Shown: positions 9,404 through 40,605 of the stretch, in pieces
How positions within the stretch are numbered: the stretch's first letter is position 1
Layout of the letters: each line of letters opens with the position of its first letter
Assembly: GCF_029338295.1 (NCBI RefSeq)
Contig: NZ_CP119792.1
Span: 434,001 to 498,000, forward strand
From: Haladaptatus sp. QDMS2
GTDB taxonomy: Archaea; Halobacteriota; Halobacteria; Halobacteriales; Halococcaceae
Length of the DNA stretch: 64,000 bases
Direction: 5' to 3'
Translations under genes and position numbers: made by a program
Notes under the pieces: generated by a model
Database searches by the model: none
What the model was told of the DNA's origin: nothing
What the model saw: the letters and a program-made list of their open reading frames with translations, nothing else

Positions 9404-12400
9404 CTATCCCAGCGGGACGAACGGGAGCGTCGCTCGCTCTTCGCTCGAGTAGTCGAGTGCGCCTGCCTGCGAGACTCCCGCCGGCGTGAGCAGGTCCACG
9501 ATACGCGGTGCGTTTTCGACGGCCCCTGCTTTCGCCCCGCCAAACACCCACTCGGCGTTCGATTCTGCGACCGGGCGAAGCGTGCCCCGGTCCTCCGATT
9601 GTACCATCGGAATGACTTCTAGATTTGCGGCATCGACGCCGTCGAACGCGGCCCGGTCGAGGGTGAGCGTGATCGTCCCGGCGTCGGTATCGACGCGCTG
9701 GTCGAGACTCACTGCCGACCCCGACTCAGTAGTGAGCGTTCCGCCGCCTGCATTCACGGCGCTCTTGGTGAACCCGCTCACTTCGAGGCGGTAGTGCCAC
9801 GGCTGTTCGAACTCGGTCGTCGCCGCGAGGTCCGAGCGACTTTCGGTCGTCCCTCCTTCCTTGGCCGGGTCGCGTACCCAGAGCACGAACATGTGTGGTG
9901 AAAAGCCGGTTCCACTCCCGAAGGCGTTGTAGAGGTTCTCGACCTCGAAGGTGAACTCGTAGAGGGTGTCGGTCTGTGCGGCCGAGAACGATTGCAGGTC
10001 GAACGCACCGGATTCGAAAGCGGCGTTCGTCGGGTAAGTGTAGGAACCGGGGCCATCGTCGTCACCATCTGCATCGGTGAGCGTCGCGACCGTCTCCGGT
10101 GGTTTGACGCGCACCGTCTGTGCGGCAAGTTCGGTTCCGTCGGTGGTTCTGACGGTCACGTCGTAGGTTCCCGGGTCAGCTATCGTGTAGGCGAAGTCGT
10201 CGGTTTGCTCACTGCTGTTCGGCGGGAAGCGGACGTTCTCGGTCGCGACGACGTCGCCATCGACCACCAGTTCGACCGTCGTCCCGCCGATGTAGTCACC
10301 GTCGTTCGACCCCGTCGCAGTGATGAACGATTCTTTGACGAACGTCTCGGCTGGAATCGACACGCTGAGGTCCTGCTGTGGTCGTTCGTAGGTCGGCAGC
10401 GTGGCGATTTCTTTGCCGCGAGCGCGACGCAATCGGATGGCCGTCCCGCCAGAGCCGACCATCGACGCGAGAATCGTCGTGCTCGGATTCACGAGCACCC
10501 GGTCGATACGCACGTCTGCGAGGTTTTCGTCGTAGGTGGCGTCGATTCCGTCCGAGTAAATCTCCGCGACGTACTTCGGTCCCTTCGCGTGCTTGCCAGG
10601 GCCCTTGCTCAGGAAGTCGAGCCGAACGTCCAGCGCCCGCCCGTTTCCGTCGGTCATGGCTCCGACGTACCACTCGTCGTCCTTCTGCCGGGCGGTGACC
10701 GTGTACTCGCCGATGGCCGAATCGAGGACCCGGGTGTCACTCCATCCACAGGCGGGCACGTCTTTCACGAACTGGAACTCGGGAACTGTCGGCCCGCGAA
10801 TCGGGTCCGTCTCGGGGTCGGGCATGACCGCCCCCGGCTGCGTCAGCGCGATAGCGTCGAGGTTGAACCCGCCGCTGTCGCCTTCGCCGAGTGTGAGGTT
10901 CAGGTCGGTCTCGCCCGCGGCGAGCGAAACCGTCGTCGAGGCCGTTGCCCAGTCGTCCCAGTAATCCGTCGGTGCGAGTGTGAGTTGGGTCGTCGTCTCG
11001 CCAGCCGACACCGTCACGGTGCGCGGTTCGTCGGCCGGGACGGCGTTTTCCTCCGCGTCACTCGCATAGCGCAGGTGGAGGTCGTACTTCCCGCGCTCGG
11101 GCACATTCTCGACGGTCCACGACACGCTCGCACCCGTGTCTGCGATGTTGGGGTCGAATCGGACGTATCGGCCGCTCTGGGCGTTCGCCCACTTCGCGGC
11201 CCGTGGCAGGCCCTCGCGGTCGGCGAATTCGGCTTGTGCGACCGACCCGACGGCGACCGTCGCTGCCTGTTCTGCGAGGTACGAACTCGGCAAGTCTGCG
11301 ACCATGTGCAGGCCGCTGAAGTAGGTCGGGTACATCGCGAGTTGCTTCGCCCGCGTCGTCTCGATGCCGCCAGACCCGGAGTCCATGTCGAAGATGCCGG
11401 GCGTGTACTCGACTGGCCCGCCGAGCATCCGGGTAAATGGGAAGGTGACGTGGTGGTCGGGGCTGACGTAGCCAAAGGAGTCGTACTCCTGGCCGAGGAC
11501 GCCCTCGCGGGTCATCACGTTCGGGTAGGTCCGGCGCTCCCCGGTCGGTTTGATGGGTTCGTGCACTTCGAGCATCTGACGGTGGTTCGCCGCCTCCTGA
11601 TAGACGAGGTGGTGGTGGTTCACCAGCGCCTGACAGTGGTGGTTGTAGGTCTTCCCGTCGACGGTCATGCCATCGTCTGCGACGTAACCGGTCTTGATGG
11701 ACCGAATCCCGAGTTCCTCGTAGAGTGCGAATGGATTCGGCGAGTCGTCGAGTTGCGCCTCGTAGTTCACGAAGTTCCCAGAGGTTTCGTTGTGAGAGGT
11801 CATCTCGACCGGTGGGTCCAACTGGAGACCGTACTCGGTGACCTCGCGCAGGTCGAAATCGGGGTAGGGGTCGTCGAAGTCCATCGTCGTCCCATCGCCG
11901 GGGAACGAGTCCCAGCCCTCGTTCCACCCTTCTACGAGCACGCTCGGAATGTCGTGTTCGCTCGCGAAGTCCATGTAGCGTTTCATCCGGCCGGTCTGTG
12001 CGCCGTGATTCCCGGTCTCCGGGCCGTTGTACTCCCAGTCTGCACGGCCGGTAATCATCATCCACCACACGCCGAGGAACTTCTGTGGAGTGATGAAATC
12101 GGTCCCTTTCGGGAATGCATCCGCGTCGAACGGTTCGTTCAGGTTGACCACGAGATTCGACTCGACTAGTGCCCCGGGTCGGTCGGCAACCTGAATCGTC
12201 CGCCACGGCGTCCGGTGGGGGGCAGCTGCAGTGACTTTCGACCCGTCGGGCATAGGTGCGAGGACGGATTCGAACGTGGTGGCTCCCGGGGAAACAGGTT
12301 CGAGGCCCATCCCGGCGTAATCGACGAGATTCGCCTCGTGGATGCTGACGTAGCGATTCTCGTCGGCCCGCATGGTCATCGGCGTGTGTGCGCCGCCGAA

Positions 12401-34798: not shown

Positions 34799-34892
34799 TC
34801 ATGTAGCCACCGTGTAGATTCGAGCCAACCGGTTCATCCCGCTCCTGCTGTGCGTTCTCTACCTTCACAATTGTTCATACAGTCTCATACAG

Positions 34893-34915
34893 CCCGTGTA
34901 CTGCATACACACGGG
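34893..34915 (+). promoter_or_regulatory. Inverted repeat upstream of the NRAMP/hyu operon
   Basis: Arms CCCGTGT (34893-34899) and ACACGGG (34909-34915) are separated by nine bases; an overlapping register pairs GTGTA with TACAC around five bases. It lies 65-87 bases before the start at 34980. Directly preceding it is a CATACAG direct repeat (two copies). Candidate operator of the operon; no matching regulator gene is nearby. Confidence 0.4.
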
Positions 34916-34979
34916 TCATAACAACATTTTAACCCATAATCGCGTTTCGTGTGAACATGTCTCGCAAGAGGTGTACGCA

Positions 34980-36188
34980 ATGAACATCGTGGAACGACTC
35001 CGGGCAATCGGTCCCGGGGCGATGGTTGCAGCGGCATTCATCGGCCCCGGCACGGTCACGACGGCCAGCGTCACGGGTGCGCGCTTCGGGTACGCGCTCA
35101 TCTGGACCATCGCGTTTTCGGTCGTCGCGACCATCATCCTCCAGGAGATGAGCGCCCGTCTGGGCCTCGTCACCCGCGAAGGACTGGGCGAGGCGCTGCG
35201 AAACCGCTTCGACAATCCTGCGCTCCGCTACGCGAGCATCGCGCTCGTCGTGAGCGCCATCGGCATCGGGACCGCCGCCTACGAGACGGGCAACATTCTC
35301 GGCGGTGCAGCGGGCCTCGAAACCGTGACCGGCGTGAGCGCCTCGCTCTGGGGACCGTTGATGGGCCTCATCGCGGGGGCGCTGCTGTGGACGGGTAAGT
35401 ACAAACTCATCGAACGGGCGCTCATCGCGCTCGTGGCCATCATGGGCGTCTCGTTCCTCATCGACGCCATCCTCATCGGCCCGGACCTCGGCGCAATTGT
35501 GACCGGGTTCGTCCCGACCGTCCCCGAGGGCTCTGCATTCCTCATCACGGGCCTCGTCGGCACCACCGTCGTCGGCTACAACCTTTTCCTGCACGCGAGC
35601 AGCGTCCAGGAACGCTGGGGCGGCCCCGAGGACCTCGCGGCGTGTCGCACGGACACCATTGCCTCGATCGTCGTCGGTGGATTCATCACGCTCTCGATTC
35701 TCGTTTCCGCGGCCGCCGTCTTCCCTGTCGGGACGGAAATCTCGGACGTCGGGACGATGGCCGAGCAACTCGAACCCGTCGCAGGCACCTACGCGAAGGT
35801 GTTCTTCAGCATCGGCCTGTTCGCCGCCGGGTTCACCAGCGCGACGACCGCGCCGCTCGCGGGTGCCTACGCGACGGCCGGTGCTCTCGGCTGGGAACGC
35901 GACCTCACCTCGCGAAAGTTCCGCGCTGTGTGGATGACCATCCTCGCGACTGGTATCGTCTTCTCTGCCATCGGGCTCAGCCCCGTCAGAGCCATCCTGT
36001 TCGCACAGGTCGCAAACGGGATTCTCCTCCCGATCATCGCACTCTTCCTCATCCTGATAATGAATGATCGCTCCAAACTCCAATCCTACGTCAATTCGAC
36101 TGCACAGAACGTCCTCGGCGGACTTGTCACGCTCATCGTCATCTGGCTCGGCGTCCGCAGTCTCCTCTCGCTCGCGGGGGTATTCTGA
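34980..36188 (+). CDS. NRAMP-family transporter lacking the metal-site motifs
   Basis: A 402-residue membrane protein with about 11 hydrophobic segments, homologous to Mn/Fe/Mg importers of the NRAMP family. The canonical DPGN motif of the first helix is GPGT here (residues 22-25) and the MPH motif in helix six is replaced by VGYN (residues 198-201), so the usual metal-ligating Asp, Asn, Met and His are absent. I start at the ATG that gives MNIVERLRAIGPG, with a GAGGTG ribosome-binding sequence nine bases upstream. The stop abuts the hyuA start. Location in a hydantoinase/oxoprolinase-like operon suggests transport of an organic substrate such as a hydantoin or oxoproline instead of a metal; the NRAMP-like gene ycsG near the B. 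subtilis oxoprolinase genes is a parallel. Confidence 0.85.
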   Translation: MNIVERLRAIGPGAMVAAAFIGPGTVTTASVTGARFGYALIWTIAFSVVATIILQEMSARLGLVTREGLGEALRNRFDNPALRYASIALVVSAIGIGTAAYETGNILGGAAGLETVTGVSASLWGPLMGLIAGALLWTGKYKLIERALIALVAIMGVSFLIDAILIGPDLGAIVTGFVPTVPEGSAFLITGLVGTTVVGYNLFLHASSVQERWGGPEDLAACRTDTIASIVVGGFITLSILVSAAAVFPVGTEISDVGTMAEQLEPVAGTYAKVFFSIGLFAAGFTSATTAPLAGAYATAGALGWERDLTSRKFRAVWMTILATGIVFSAIGLSPVRAILFAQVANGILLPIIALFLILIMNDRSKLQSYVNSTAQNVLGGLVTLIVIWLGVRSLLSLAGVF

Positions 36189-38219
36189 ATGAACACGGGG
36201 GGCAACCAGCCGCCAGAAACGACCGTCGGCGTGGACGTCGGCGGCACGTTCACGGACGTGGTCCTGCTTCGCGGCAACGACCTCATCACTGCGAAGGTGC
36301 CGAGTACCGCAGACCAGAGCGTCGGCGTGATGAACGGCATCGAGAAAGCCTGTGAAAAGGCGGGCATCGCACCCGGCGACATCGACGACTTCGCCCACGC
36401 CATGACCGTCTCGGTCAACGCGCTGCTGGAAGAAGACGGCGCGAAGACGGCGCTCGTCACTACTGAGGGCTTCCGCGACGTCCTCGAAATCGGCCGCCAG
36501 GACCGGCCATCTCTGTACGACATCAACGCCGACAAGCCAGCGCCGCTCGTCCCACGCCGCCGTCGATTCACGGTCGGCGAACGCGCAACGACCGAGGGCG
36601 TCACCCAGTCGGTAGACGCTGCTTCGGTCCGCGAGGTGGCCGCCTCGATTCGAAACTCGGGCGTGGAGGCCGTCGCGGTCTGCCTGCTCCACGCCTACGC
36701 ACACCCCGAAAACGAGTCGGCCGTCGCGGAGATTCTCGAAGGCGAACTCGACGTTCCCGTCTCCGTCTCCCACGAGGTGCTCGCAGAGTTCCGCGAGTAC
36801 GAACGCACCTCGACGACCGTCGCAGACGCATACGTCACCCCGGCCATCGACGCCTATATCGGCCGGTTGGTCGAAAGAGCCGCGGACGCCGGCGTGCCCG
36901 AACCGCACGTCATGCAGGCAAACGGTGGCATCACCGACGCCACGACGGTCCGCAATCACGCGGTTCGGACGTGTATGTCCGGGCCGGCCGCCGGCGTGGT
37001 TGGCGCTCGGGCGAGCGTTAACGACGTCGCCGCAGACCGCGGTCTCGAAGGCCTCGTCACCTTCGACATGGGTGGCACGTCCTCGGACGTGAGTCTCGTC
37101 CGCGACGGTGCGGTGGAGCAGACCACCAACGCCAAAATCAACGGTCGCCCCATCAAGACGCCGATGGTCGACGTGACCACGGTCGGTGCCGGTGGCGGCA
37201 GCAAGGGCTGGGTTGACCCGGGGGGTGCGCTCCGCATCGGCCCCGAGTCGGCCGGCGCGAACCCCGGCCCGGTCTGCTACGGACGCGGCGGCACCGACCC
37301 GACGGTCACCGACGCGAACGTCGTCCTCGGCTACATCGGGTCGAGCACCAGTCTCGGCGGCGAACTGTCCATCGACGTGGACGCCGCCCGCGACTCGCTC
37401 GCAGAACTCGCAGACGAGGCTGGCCTCGACGGCCCGCTCGCGGCCGCACAGGGGATGTACCGCGTCGCCAACGCGACGATGACTCGCGCCATCCGCGCGG
37501 TCACGCTCGAACGTGGCTACGACCCACGGAACTTCGGCCTCGTCGCCTTCGGCGGTGCCGGACCGATGCACGCCGCCGCTCTCGCAGACCGCCTCGACAT
37601 CGGCACGGTGGTCGCCCCACGCGCCTGTGGCGTGCTCTCTGCGTTCGGCCTGCTCGCCGCAGATGAGAAACACGACGTGGTGCGGACGAACCGCCGACCG
37701 CTCGACGCAATCGACGTAGACGAGATGGAGGCCACCTACGCCGACCTCGAAGCGTCGGTGCGCGACGAGTGCAGCGACCCGGACGCGGCCGTCGTCACCC
37801 GCCGGGCAGACCTCCGGTACGCAGGGCAAAGTTTCGAACTCACCGTCCCCGTCGATACGCCGTTCGACCCCGAGGCCGCCGCCAAGCGATTCCACGCGGC
37901 CCACGAAACGGCCTACGGCTACCGGATGGACGAGGCGGTCGACCTCGTGAACGTCCGTGCCGAAGCAGTCGTCGAACGCGCAGACCCAGCAGTCACCTAC
38001 GACGCACCCGGCGACGCCGTCGTCGACGAGCGCGAGGCACACTTCGCGGACGGAGCCTACACGACCACCATCTACGACCGGATACGCCTGCCGCCGGGCG
38101 AGACGGTCACCGGCCCAGCAGTCGTTGAACAGGACGAGAGTACCGTCGTCGTGCCGCCACGATGGGAGGCGACGGTGCGCGTCGATGGAACCCTCGTCCT
38201 CACGGAGGTGGCCCAATGA
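36189..38219 (+). CDS. hyuA: Hydantoinase/oxoprolinase family protein HyuA
   Basis: A 676-residue protein of the hydantoinase A/oxoprolinase N-terminal family, with ASKHA-type phosphate-binding motifs VGVDVGGTFTDVVL at the N-terminus and FDMGGTSSDVSLVRDG in the middle, plus AFGGAGPMHAAALADRL. Together with HyuB it typically catalyses ATP-dependent ring opening of hydantoins, 5-oxoproline or acetone-type carboxylations; the substrate cannot be read from sequence. The ATG follows directly after the transporter stop, and the stop overlaps the hyuB start by four bases, so translation is probably coupled. Length is normal for the family. Confidence 0.92.
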   Translation: MNTGGNQPPETTVGVDVGGTFTDVVLLRGNDLITAKVPSTADQSVGVMNGIEKACEKAGIAPGDIDDFAHAMTVSVNALLEEDGAKTALVTTEGFRDVLEIGRQDRPSLYDINADKPAPLVPRRRRFTVGERATTEGVTQSVDAASVREVAASIRNSGVEAVAVCLLHAYAHPENESAVAEILEGELDVPVSVSHEVLAEFREYERTSTTVADAYVTPAIDAYIGRLVERAADAGVPEPHVMQANGGITDATTVRNHAVRTCMSGPAAGVVGARASVNDVAADRGLEGLVTFDMGGTSSDVSLVRDGAVEQTTNAKINGRPIKTPMVDVTTVGAGGGSKGWVDPGGALRIGPESAGANPGPVCYGRGGTDPTVTDANVVLGYIGSSTSLGGELSIDVDAARDSLAELADEAGLDGPLAAAQGMYRVANATMTRAIRAVTLERGYDPRNFGLVAFGGAGPMHAAALADRLDIGTVVAPRACGVLSAFGLLAADEKHDVVRTNRRPLDAIDVDEMEATYADLEASVRDECSDPDAAVVTRRADLRYAGQSFELTVPVDTPFDPEAAAKRFHAAHETAYGYRMDEAVDLVNVRAEAVVERADPAVTYDAPGDAVVDEREAHFADGAYTTTIYDRIRLPPGETVTGPAVVEQDESTVVVPPRWEATVRVDGTLVLTEVAQ

Positions 38220-39871
38220 CGAACAACGCCGTCCCTTCGAACGATGGTGCTGACATCGACGCCGTGACGCTCGAAATCCTCCGCAACCAGCTCGAAAGCG
38301 TCGCAGAGGAGATGGGTCAGGTGCTCATCACGGGGTCGTACTCCCCGAACATCAAGGAGCGCCAGGACTGCTCGACCGCGCTCTTCGACGCCAAAGGCCG
38401 AATGATTGCGCAGGCAGAGCACATCCCGGTCCACCTCGGCGCGATGCCCGAAGCCGTCGACGCCGTGCTGGAACGCGACCCCCAGCCTGGCGACGTGTTC
38501 ATCCTCAACGACCCGTTCGACGGCGGGACGCACCTGCCGGACGTGACGCTCGTCTCGCCGCTCGCGCCCCGCGGTGAAGTCGTCGGATACGCTGTCTCAC
38601 GCGCCCACCACGCCGACGTGGGTGGGATGACGCCGGGCAGCATGCCTGCCGGCGCGCGCGAAGTGTACCAAGAAGGGCTCAGACTTCCCCCAACCCGACT
38701 CGTGTCAGGCGGCGAGGTCAACGAGGACGTGATGGGGCTCATCCTCGCGAACGTCAGAACGCCGGACGAACGTCGGGCGGACCTCCGTGCGCAGATTGCC
38801 GCCAACGACCGCGCCGAGGAGCGCCTCGGCGACCTGCTCACCGAACACGGCGACCTCGTGCTCGGGGCGTTCGACGCCGTTATCGACTACTCGCGCGACC
38901 GCATCGCCGCCGAGATTCGCGACCTGCCGGACGGGACGTACGCCGCCCGCGACGTACTCGAAGGTGACGGCGTCCTCGAACACCAGTCGGACGTGGATCC
39001 GGAAACGGTCGAAATCCCAATCGAGACGACGGTCACCGTCGACGGCGACGAGATTATCGTCGATTTCGAGGGGACGGCAGCCCAGGTGCCGGGCAATCTG
39101 AACGCGCCGCTCGCGGTCGCGAAGTCAGCGGTCTACTTCGTGGTTCGCTGCGTGACCGATCCCGAGATTCCGCCGAATCAGGGCTGTTACGACCCGGTCA
39201 CGCTCAACGTACCCGACGGCTCGGTGCTGAATCCGAACCTACCGGCGGCCGTCGTCGGCGGGAACGTCGAGACCAGCCAGCGCGTGACCGACGTCGTCCT
39301 CGCCGCGTTCGCGGAGGCTGTCCCAGACCGCGTGCCAGCGGGCGGGCAGGGGACGATGAACAACCTCATCATCGGCAGTCGCACGGGGTCGTTCACCTAC
39401 TACGAGACCATCGGCGGCGGATTCGGTGCCCGCCCGACCAAAGACGGGATGGACGGCGTGCAGGTCGGCATGACCAACACGCTCAACACACCCGTCGAAG
39501 CGCTGGAGACGGCCTACCCGCTCCACGTCGAACGCTACGGACTTCGCGCAGGAAGCGGCGGCGACGGCCGGTTCCGCGGGGGACTCGGCCTCGAGCGCTC
39601 GGTCACCATTCAAGAAGACGCCACCGTCTCGCTGCTGACCGAGCGTCGGCGCATCCCGCCGAAGGGGCTCGCCGGCGGCAAAGACGGCGCGGTCGGCCGC
39701 AACCTCATCGACGGCGAACCCGTCGCCGCGAAGACCTCGGTCGACGTGGACGCCGGAACGACCGTCACCGTTCTCACACCGGGCGGCGGGGGCCACGGGA
39801 ACCCGGACGACCGGGACCCGGCACTCCGCGAACAGGACCGCCTCGACGAGAAGGCGGACGGAGACGAATGA
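38216..39871 (+). CDS. hyuB: Hydantoinase B/oxoprolinase family protein HyuB
   Basis: A 551-residue partner of HyuA. The N-terminal block IDAVTLEILRNQLESVAEEMGQVLITGSYSPNIKERQDCS and the family segments HLGAMPEAVDAV, NDPFDGGTHLPDVTLV and RAHHADVGGMTPGSMP are typical. The C-terminal part has GFGARPTKDGMDGV and RERR-type loops. I chose the start MTNNAVPSND, which overlaps the hyuA stop (ATGA) and matches family N-termini. Functions as the hydrolytic subunit of the ring-opening complex. Its stop overlaps the racemase start. Confidence 0.92.
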   Translation: MTNNAVPSNDGADIDAVTLEILRNQLESVAEEMGQVLITGSYSPNIKERQDCSTALFDAKGRMIAQAEHIPVHLGAMPEAVDAVLERDPQPGDVFILNDPFDGGTHLPDVTLVSPLAPRGEVVGYAVSRAHHADVGGMTPGSMPAGAREVYQEGLRLPPTRLVSGGEVNEDVMGLILANVRTPDERRADLRAQIAANDRAEERLGDLLTEHGDLVLGAFDAVIDYSRDRIAAEIRDLPDGTYAARDVLEGDGVLEHQSDVDPETVEIPIETTVTVDGDEIIVDFEGTAAQVPGNLNAPLAVAKSAVYFVVRCVTDPEIPPNQGCYDPVTLNVPDGSVLNPNLPAAVVGGNVETSQRVTDVVLAAFAEAVPDRVPAGGQGTMNNLIIGSRTGSFTYYETIGGGFGARPTKDGMDGVQVGMTNTLNTPVEALETAYPLHVERYGLRAGSGGDGRFRGGLGLERSVTIQEDATVSLLTERRRIPPKGLAGGKDGAVGRNLIDGEPVAAKTSVDVDAGTTVTVLTPGGGGHGNPDDRDPALREQDRLDEKADGDE

Positions 39872-40605
39872 TGAATGACCCCACGACCCACGGCGACCGC
39901 CTGAAACTCGGCGTCGTCGTCCCATCCTCGAACACGACGGTCGAACCGGAGTTCGCCTACTGGACGCCCGCGGACGTGTCGGTCCACGCGGCCAGAATGC
40001 CGCTCGTTGACGTGACCGTCGAGGGGCTGGATGCGATGGCCGACGACGCCGTCGCCGCAGCCGAGCGACTGGCTGACGCCGAAGTCGACGCCATCGCCTA
40101 CGCCTGCACGACGGGGAGTCTCGTCCACGGCCACGGCTTCGACGCGGACTTAGAAGCGCGACTCAGCGAGGCCGCAGGCGTGCCTGCCGTTGCGACGGCG
40201 CTCTCGGTGCGCCGCGTGCTCGACGCACTCGACGTGTCGCGAATTGCGGTTGCCACGCCGTACATCGCGGAGCTGAACGACCGAGAACGCGACTATCTCG
40301 ACGAAGCCGGATTCGACGTGCGCCACCTCGACGGCCGGGGAATCGAGCGCAACACCGACATCGGGAGACTCACCCCGGCAGACGCCCGCGAGCAGGCGTC
40401 GGCGGCGCTCGAAGTGGCCCCGGACGCAGAGGCGCTGTTCATCTCGTGTACGAACTACGCGACGCTCTCGGTCATCGACGAACTCGGAGCAGGCGGCGTC
40501 CCCGTCTTCTCCAGCAATCTCGCGACGCTCTGGGACCTCGCCCGCGTTTCCGGCCTCGCCATCGACGGGTTGCCCGGTGGGCTTCCGGCTCCAGACGCTC
40601 GGTAA
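39868..40605 (+). CDS. Asp/Glu/hydantoin racemase or maleate isomerase-like enzyme
   Basis: A 245-residue cytoplasmic enzyme of the Asp/Glu racemase superfamily (maleate cis-trans isomerase, arylmalonate decarboxylase-like). The two cysteines of the superfamily are visible: one in AIAYACTTGSLVHG and one in ALFISCTNYATLS, with the start region GVVVPSSNTTVEPEF. It overlaps the hyuB stop by four bases, completing a transporter-HyuA-HyuB-racemase operon. In this context a racemase for hydantoins or an intermediate acid is the best guess, but maleate isomerisation is also possible. An alternative start is the second ATG at 39871. Confidence 0.85.
   Translation: MMNDPTTHGDRLKLGVVVPSSNTTVEPEFAYWTPADVSVHAARMPLVDVTVEGLDAMADDAVAAAERLADAEVDAIAYACTTGSLVHGHGFDADLEARLSEAAGVPAVATALSVRRVLDALDVSRIAVATPYIAELNDRERDYLDEAGFDVRHLDGRGIERNTDIGRLTPADAREQASAALEVAPDAEALFISCTNYATLSVIDELGAGGVPVFSSNLATLWDLARVSGLAIDGLPGGLPAPDAR

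Follow-up and report, generated by a model that had tools for sequence, protein, structure and literature searches.

Proteins of the NRAMP family that lack the metal-binding DPGN and MPH motifs have been described as 'Nramp-related' and are paraphyletic to the canonical NRAMPs; in a rooted tree they are basal and the DPGN/MPH site is derived, and all of their groups other than the NRMT-like and MntG groups have been called entirely uncharacterized (PMC12873925). An Slc11 'orphan outgroup' shows a Y-N pattern in transmembrane helix 3 (TM3) and a V-Y pattern in TM6 (PMC10606218). The precedent for apparent organic import by a protein of this family is PxpT (2026), which C. glutamicum needs in order to grow on 5-oxoproline: mutants without it still grow normally on glucose, plasmid-borne pxpT restores their growth on 5-oxoproline, and the study leaves metal transport possible (PMC13274462). 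Here, we analyzed an NRAMP-family gene that heads a four-gene operon with hydantoinase-type (HyuA, HyuB) and racemase-type genes in a 64,000-nucleotide stretch of Haladaptatus sp. QDMS2 (NZ_CP119792.1, positions 434,001 to 498,000; hereafter the window). We refer to this transporter and its relatives as hyuNRAMP.

We consider it fairly likely that the four genes form a module that takes up and degrades a small organic compound with a cyclic-amide ring. The transporter would probably import this compound rather than a metal, because every metal-binding side chain has been lost and the operon encodes both a cyclic-amide enzyme and a racemase-type enzyme. Loss of the ligands has in itself been recorded before, in a little-studied group. 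The published 'Nramp-related, G-motif' groups also lack DPGN and MPH, and the pattern of the orphan outgroup fits hyuNRAMP, but these groups were published without genomic context. A literature search for NRAMP with hydantoinase found no paper, and in the literature searched we met with no account of the link to hydantoinase genes in haloarchaea, of the racemase-type partner, of the operator described below or of a functional meaning for the signature shared with PxpT.

A transporter without metal ligands in a four-gene operon

The transporter gene (34980..36188, + strand; 402 aa; Pfam Nramp PF01566, 1.6e-97) is followed on the same strand by genes for a HyuA-type ATP-dependent cyclic-amide hydrolase subunit (36189..38219; 676 aa; Hydantoinase_A, 2.3e-89), a HyuB-type metal subunit (38216..39871; 551 aa; Hydantoinase_B, 1.4e-204) and a two-cysteine enzyme of the Asp/Glu racemase superfamily, hereafter gene 4 (39868..40605; 245 aa; Amdase, 4.2e-38; Asp_Glu_race, 1.1e-8). 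The TGA stop of the transporter gene abuts the HyuA ATG (0 nt between them). HyuA and HyuB overlap at their ends by 4 nt, as do HyuB and gene 4, although the start annotated publicly in an almost identical plasmid would reduce the latter overlap to 1 nt. The initial annotation had described four genes coupled by abutting or overlapping stops, with HyuA, HyuB and a racemase-like enzyme downstream of the transporter, and both the open reading frame coordinates and the Pfam families agree with this. An identical NRAMP, in the same four-gene order, lies on plasmid NZ_CP119783 of Haladaptatus sp. YSMS36, where its public label is 'Nramp family divalent metal transporter'.

We aligned the transporter with the solved structures of DraNramp, BfraNramp and EleNRMT and with canonical haloarchaeal and bacterial MntH proteins. 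In TM1, GPGT at residues 22-25 (35043..35054, + strand) replaces the metal-binding DPGN, and in TM6, VGYN at residues 198-201 (35571..35582, + strand) has V-G-Y in place of M-P-H, in both cases with exactly the position and letters first annotated. From DraNramp to the window protein, the changes are D56 to G22, N59 to T25, M230 to V198, P231 to G199, H232 to Y200 and, in TM3, E134 to N105. Across 33 members of the hyuNRAMP clade, G22, P23, G24, T25, V198 and Y200 are invariant; G199 is present in 31, with Ser in the other two, and the TM3 position is occupied by Asn in 32 and by Asp in one. As the changes are invariant or nearly so in these relatives, they do not stem from sequencing error or drift. 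The alignment revealed no ligands shifted to nearby positions: neither the TM1 nor the TM6 break contains Asp, Glu, His or Cys beyond those common to other NRAMPs, and the only histidine nearby, H205, has a match in canonical NRAMPs.

Structure modelling, a check suggested with the initial annotation, gave an AlphaFold2 model of moderate confidence (pLDDT 74.8, pTM 0.77) with the NRAMP fold and with TM1 broken at residues 20-22. Its best fold matches were all of the NRAMP family, namely DraNramp, EleNRMT and the YcsG model 9a52 (YcsG-FabL in the PDB, met by fold search only). The protein thus shares with canonical NRAMP/MntH proteins (DraNramp, BfraNramp) the fold, 26-28% identity in structural alignment and the TM10 Gln (Q343, Dra Q378), but lacks DPGN, MPH and the TM3 Glu. 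The next matches after the NRAMPs were LAT1, ApcT, AdiC and MhsT, which are amino acid or amine carriers. In LeuT-fold amino-acid carriers, the substrate carboxylate is commonly held on the backbone amides of the broken TM1. By analogy, the GPG at the TM1 break is compatible with carboxylate binding: it would give free backbone amides where canonical NRAMPs hold the metal, and the TM6 tyrosine would place a side chain there.

The HyuA subunit keeps all three ATP motifs, DVGGTFTD (16), DMGGT (293) and GANPGP (356), and HyuB keeps the metal tetrad D51, H106, D109 and H132. Caprolactamase has the corresponding ATP motifs in CapA and the counterpart tetrad Asp41, His99, Asp102 and His124 in CapB (PMC8453981). 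HyuA has its best solved homologues in a protein bearing the name N-methylhydantoinase (1e-137) and in caprolactamase 6yra (7e-107); acetone/acetophenone carboxylase subunits are more distant relatives. HyuAB resembles CapAB and N-methylhydantoinase-type enzymes in the subunit pair, the ATP motifs and the metal tetrad, but it scores far below the NCBIfam cut-offs for caprolactamase and acetophenone carboxylase, and none of the oxoprolinase equivalog models matched it. Homology therefore does not name the substrate. Judging from the intact motifs, HyuAB is predicted to be an ATP-dependent lactam- or hydantoin-type hydrolase, in which HyuA would phosphorylate the ring amide with ATP and HyuB would hydrolyse it at the metal site.

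Gene 4 aligns with the structures of arylmalonate decarboxylase (AMDase) and maleate isomerase, and its C80 and C194 are conserved in more than 90% of 26 relatives. Arylmalonate decarboxylases have Gly in place of the first of two Cys (PMC4996985). Assignment of gene 4 to these enzymes was rejected because it keeps both racemase cysteines: the AMDase-defining Gly (position 74) is absent, and C80 aligns there. The ectoine utilisation protein EutA was rejected as well, with 108 of 318 bits, below the equivalog cut-off. Gene 4 shares the sequence family and the two catalytic Cys of the racemases and isomerases in the maleate isomerase, hydantoin racemase and AMDase superfamily, but reaches no equivalog cut-off. 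We therefore regard it as a putative racemase/isomerase-type enzyme, which would convert an unusable isomer of the substrate or product.

Phylogeny, gene neighbourhood and regulation

We found hyuNRAMP members in 85 of the 294 genomes of the class, with 56-100% identity and a clear gap to all other NRAMPs (≤36%). A search of 394 genomes from the phylum at E 1e-60 gave no member outside the order (haloarchaea), and no bacterial plasmid exceeded about 34% identity among the full-length matches listed. A maximum-likelihood tree resolved six supported clades: canonical NRAMPs, NRMT, hyuNRAMP (33 sequences, support 99/99), PxpT and two more, of GSGS and GPGS type. The hyuNRAMP clade did not group with EleNRMT, the two lying in separate supported clades. 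The PxpT clade, on a long branch, was monophyletic without hyuNRAMP (100/100). A tree had been proposed with the initial annotation; it separates hyuNRAMP from the canonical NRAMPs, but does not make it the sister of PxpT, although a joint clade of the two was not rejected (p-AU 0.42).

We collected NRAMP genes beside pxpA from plasmids and genomes, with a close orthologue from Bacillus tequilensis representing B. subtilis YcsG. In this PxpT/YcsG (MntG) clade, pxpA lies near the NRAMP gene in 70 of 80 genome loci. In the proteins read, TM1 carries GPGF and TM6 carries GGY; all four metal ligands are absent, and the alignment revealed no canonical metal ligand in the clade. PxpT/YcsG and hyuNRAMP have in common the NRAMP fold, GPG in TM1, GN in TM3, GY in TM6 and an operon with a cyclic-amide hydrolase. 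The two differ in that hyuNRAMP has T25, V198 and Q343 where PxpT has F, G and G, is partnered with HyuAB and a racemase-type enzyme rather than with PxpABC, and is associated with a ribbon-helix-helix regulator instead of a GntR regulator; the identity between them is 22-25%. On the tree and gene context, simple orthology of hyuNRAMP with PxpT was rejected. The parallel with B. subtilis ycsG drawn in the initial annotation thus holds for the residue changes and gains from the need for PxpT on 5-oxoproline, but not for the partner enzymes, which for ycsG are PxpABC, a 5-oxoprolinase of another kind, and the claim of Mn import discussed below contests it.

To compare gene neighbourhoods, we used 36 wide loci, comprising the window and 35 others, with genes called by a codon-usage model. 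HyuA was directly 3' of the NRAMP gene in 33 of the 36 loci across the class, which shows that the genes are not together by accident. A racemase-type gene lay within the locus in 27; one locus (L036) was rearranged with every part still present. In the genome search, 83 of the 85 genomes with hyuNRAMP had a HyuA orthologue, compared with 124 of the 209 others (Fisher 4e-13, a value that is only indicative since related genomes are not independent), and reading the L060 locus lifts the co-occurrence to 84 of 85. Overall, HyuA orthologues occur in about 207 of the 294 genomes (hand count, best E below about 1e-215).

We compared these loci with 35 loci that have HyuAB alone, nearly all from genomes free of hyuNRAMP (one genome, G077, has the NRAMP elsewhere). 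Of these, only two had a racemase-type gene, and none had the regulator gene or the operator. No replacement transporter was evident beside HyuAB in the 35 loci, where not every neighbour was searched for its family. The racemase gene, regulator and operator therefore follow the NRAMP and not HyuAB, and with the NRAMP they look like a separable uptake module that was added to a widespread HyuAB. In several genomes, genes read by eye as CofE-like (F420 ligase) and F420-dependent-oxidoreductase-like follow HyuAB, with or without the NRAMP (L048, L054, L062, L063, L066 and L068; HyuAB alone in L232, L235, L244 and L246). In locus L047, with the NRAMP on the + strand, a gene 3' of the operon (about 10704-12020) scores above the 5'-deoxyadenosine deaminase cut-off.

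Upstream of the transporter gene, a putative operator (34864..34890, + strand) consists of three tandem TTCAYAC-like units with a 10-bp period, TTCACAA, TTCATAC and CTCATAC, separated by ttg and agt. The motif precedes the NRAMP start in 30 of 33 loci, with a 118-fold enrichment over the rest of the loci and a dominant spacing of 10 bp, and in the 3.88 Mb QDMS2 genome an overlapping near-match pair was found at this promoter only. The strength of the operator rests on the comparison across genomes, as two matches with up to two mismatches are not rare by chance in the window alone (9 of 100 shuffles). The operator was not found upstream of HyuA in the 35 loci without the NRAMP. A putative archaeal core promoter element, tCATAACAACATTTTAA, lies at 34916..34932 (+ strand; by eye), and a CAACAACCCTTTT-like element was read by eye at the equivalent place in most related upstream regions. 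An inverted repeat, CCCGTGT...ACACGGG, is located just 3' of the operator repeats (34893-34915) and was not evident in the other upstream regions compared. A ribbon-helix-helix (CopG-type) gene stands beside the NRAMP in at least 29 of the 36 loci, usually immediately upstream. The window has no such gene, and a copy with 62% identity lies elsewhere in the genome (G000:C1:1127473-1128009). This linkage suggests that the ribbon-helix-helix protein may bind the TTCAYAC repeats and would thereby control the operon.

Candidate substrates and alternative explanations

The substrate of hyuNRAMP would be a cyclic amide of the hydantoin, lactam or imide type that probably bears a carboxylate. Its import would most likely be followed by ring opening at the expense of ATP and by conversion of isomers. 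Import of an organic ring substrate, as the initial annotation had proposed, is likely given the operon context and the loss of all metal ligands; its example of 5-oxoproline is not favoured by the distribution of pxpA. Its wording that the NRAMP fold had been reused has a precedent in PxpT as far as organic import is concerned, but presumes that metal transport came first, which is the opposite of the published rooted tree (PMC12873925).

Several observations weigh against import of an organic compound for HyuAB. Locus L051 has the NRAMP, a racemase-type gene and a creatininase-family gene with no HyuAB beside them, and at L052 the NRAMP is accompanied by the regulator gene alone, with neither HyuAB nor a racemase-type gene. 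HyuAB may often act on an internal metabolite, as no replacement transporter was evident in the 35 loci with HyuAB alone. EleNRMT, an NRMT-type transporter with the NRAMP fold and a non-canonical site, carries Mg though part of the canonical site is missing, and by this analogy the loss of ligands does not prove that metal transport has been lost here. In addition, a 2023 study of B. subtilis YcsG reported that its overexpression raises cellular Mn, that MntR binds and represses the ycsG operon promoter, and that attempts to obtain an mntH mntA ycsG triple mutant failed (PMC10448178).

A special case of the organic-import explanation is that the substrate is 5-oxoproline, with the NRAMP as a haloarchaeal PxpT, HyuAB as a 5-oxoprolinase and gene 4 acting on the D form (converting D-glutamate to L-glutamate, for instance). 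The residue changes common to PxpT, the place of HyuAB within the hydantoinase/oxoprolinase/caprolactamase group and the membership of gene 4 in the Asp/Glu racemase superfamily are consistent with this. HyuAB is also common with no transporter, which would be expected if its substrate is a metabolite that arises in every cell. However, QDMS2 already has pxpA with PxpB- and PxpC-like genes on this contig, in a cluster that lies at a distance of about 137 kb and contains no NRAMP. Across genomes, pxpA and hyuNRAMP do not replace each other, since they co-occur in 21 genomes against 11 expected (p 4e-4); together with the QDMS2 cluster, this argues against plain redundancy. The low caprolactamase scores of HyuAB, its lack of an oxoprolinase equivalog match and the differences from PxpT at residue 25 and Q343 also speak against it, and we regard 5-oxoproline as one candidate substrate, but a rather unlikely one. 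A dihydropyrimidinase/hydantoinase-like gene lies near pxpA in the same genome (L095, C2:326000-338000), together with amidase-like and aminotransferase-like genes (by eye), as a second cyclic-amide cluster without an NRAMP.

It is less probable still that hyuNRAMP remains a divalent-metal carrier (Mn, Mg or similar) that serves the HyuB metal or the Mg of ATP, with a selectivity altered as in NRMT. The fold, the retained Q343, the kept metal site of HyuB, the public annotation and the reported Mn phenotype and MntR repression of YcsG, whose orthologue has the same residue changes, would fit such a carrier. However, EleNRMT keeps the TM1 Asp and the TM3 Glu and hyuNRAMP has neither: where canonical NRAMPs have D, N, M and H it invariantly has G, T, V and Y, and N stands in for Dra E134. 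The C. glutamicum pxpT phenotype, failure on 5-oxoproline with normal growth on glucose, also points away from a metal role. Furthermore, the presence of the NRAMP tracks HyuAB, and the local regulator gene and an operator nearly unique to the NRAMP promoter make the locus look like a substrate-specific uptake module and not a metal regulon. A cargo unrelated to HyuAB (such as product export or a compatible solute), with the operon kept for co-regulation only, would suit L051, L052 and the frequent occurrence of HyuAB without the NRAMP, but is the most doubtful of these explanations, given the near-total co-occurrence, the tight gene coupling in most genomes and the presence of HyuA elsewhere in the genome of L051 (G077).

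Other non-canonical NRAMP clades and implications

Further NRAMPs with unusual sites were found in haloarchaea. In one clade, of GPGS/SIAA type (L096, L186, L187, L191 and L209), the gene adjoins one of the dihydrodipicolinate synthase (DHDPS) family in Neorhizobium as well as in three haloarchaea, and this may be a further clade of organic-acid carriers. By eye, the neighbours of the QDMS2 copy (C2:390684; own3, L096) include a sulfatase-like gene and an ABC transporter. Another haloarchaeal clade has GSGS in TM1 and ALWPN in TM6, often with a TauE/SafE anion permease gene downstream (L185, L189, L190, L192-L195, L197-L199, L203 and L204); its GSG resembles the TM1 motif of amino-acid carriers. 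The third NRAMP of QDMS2 (C1:892038-893066, L097) sits on a very long branch, and its site reads GPAT/HITL. With this copy also non-canonical, none of the three NRAMPs of the genome has a canonical metal site.

We tentatively raise the possibility, which we hold with limited confidence, that several NRAMP clades with Gly for Asp carry organic acids, each paired with a different catabolic enzyme, which would be HyuAB for hyuNRAMP, PxpABC for PxpT and a DHDPS-family lyase in the haloarchaeal/rhizobial clade. Metal transport would then be derived, and the Mn role of YcsG would need revision. The dispute over YcsG/MntG (Mn versus 5-oxoproline) becomes testable with hyuNRAMP. The locus is probably a conserved organic-solute importer module that has been mis-annotated, and the wholesale label 'divalent metal transporter' for NRAMP proteins misleads for many genomes. 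With this large, conserved haloarchaeal clade, PxpT is joined by a second lineage of the family whose cargo is probably organic, and the clade bears on the origin of the metal site in a medically important transporter family.

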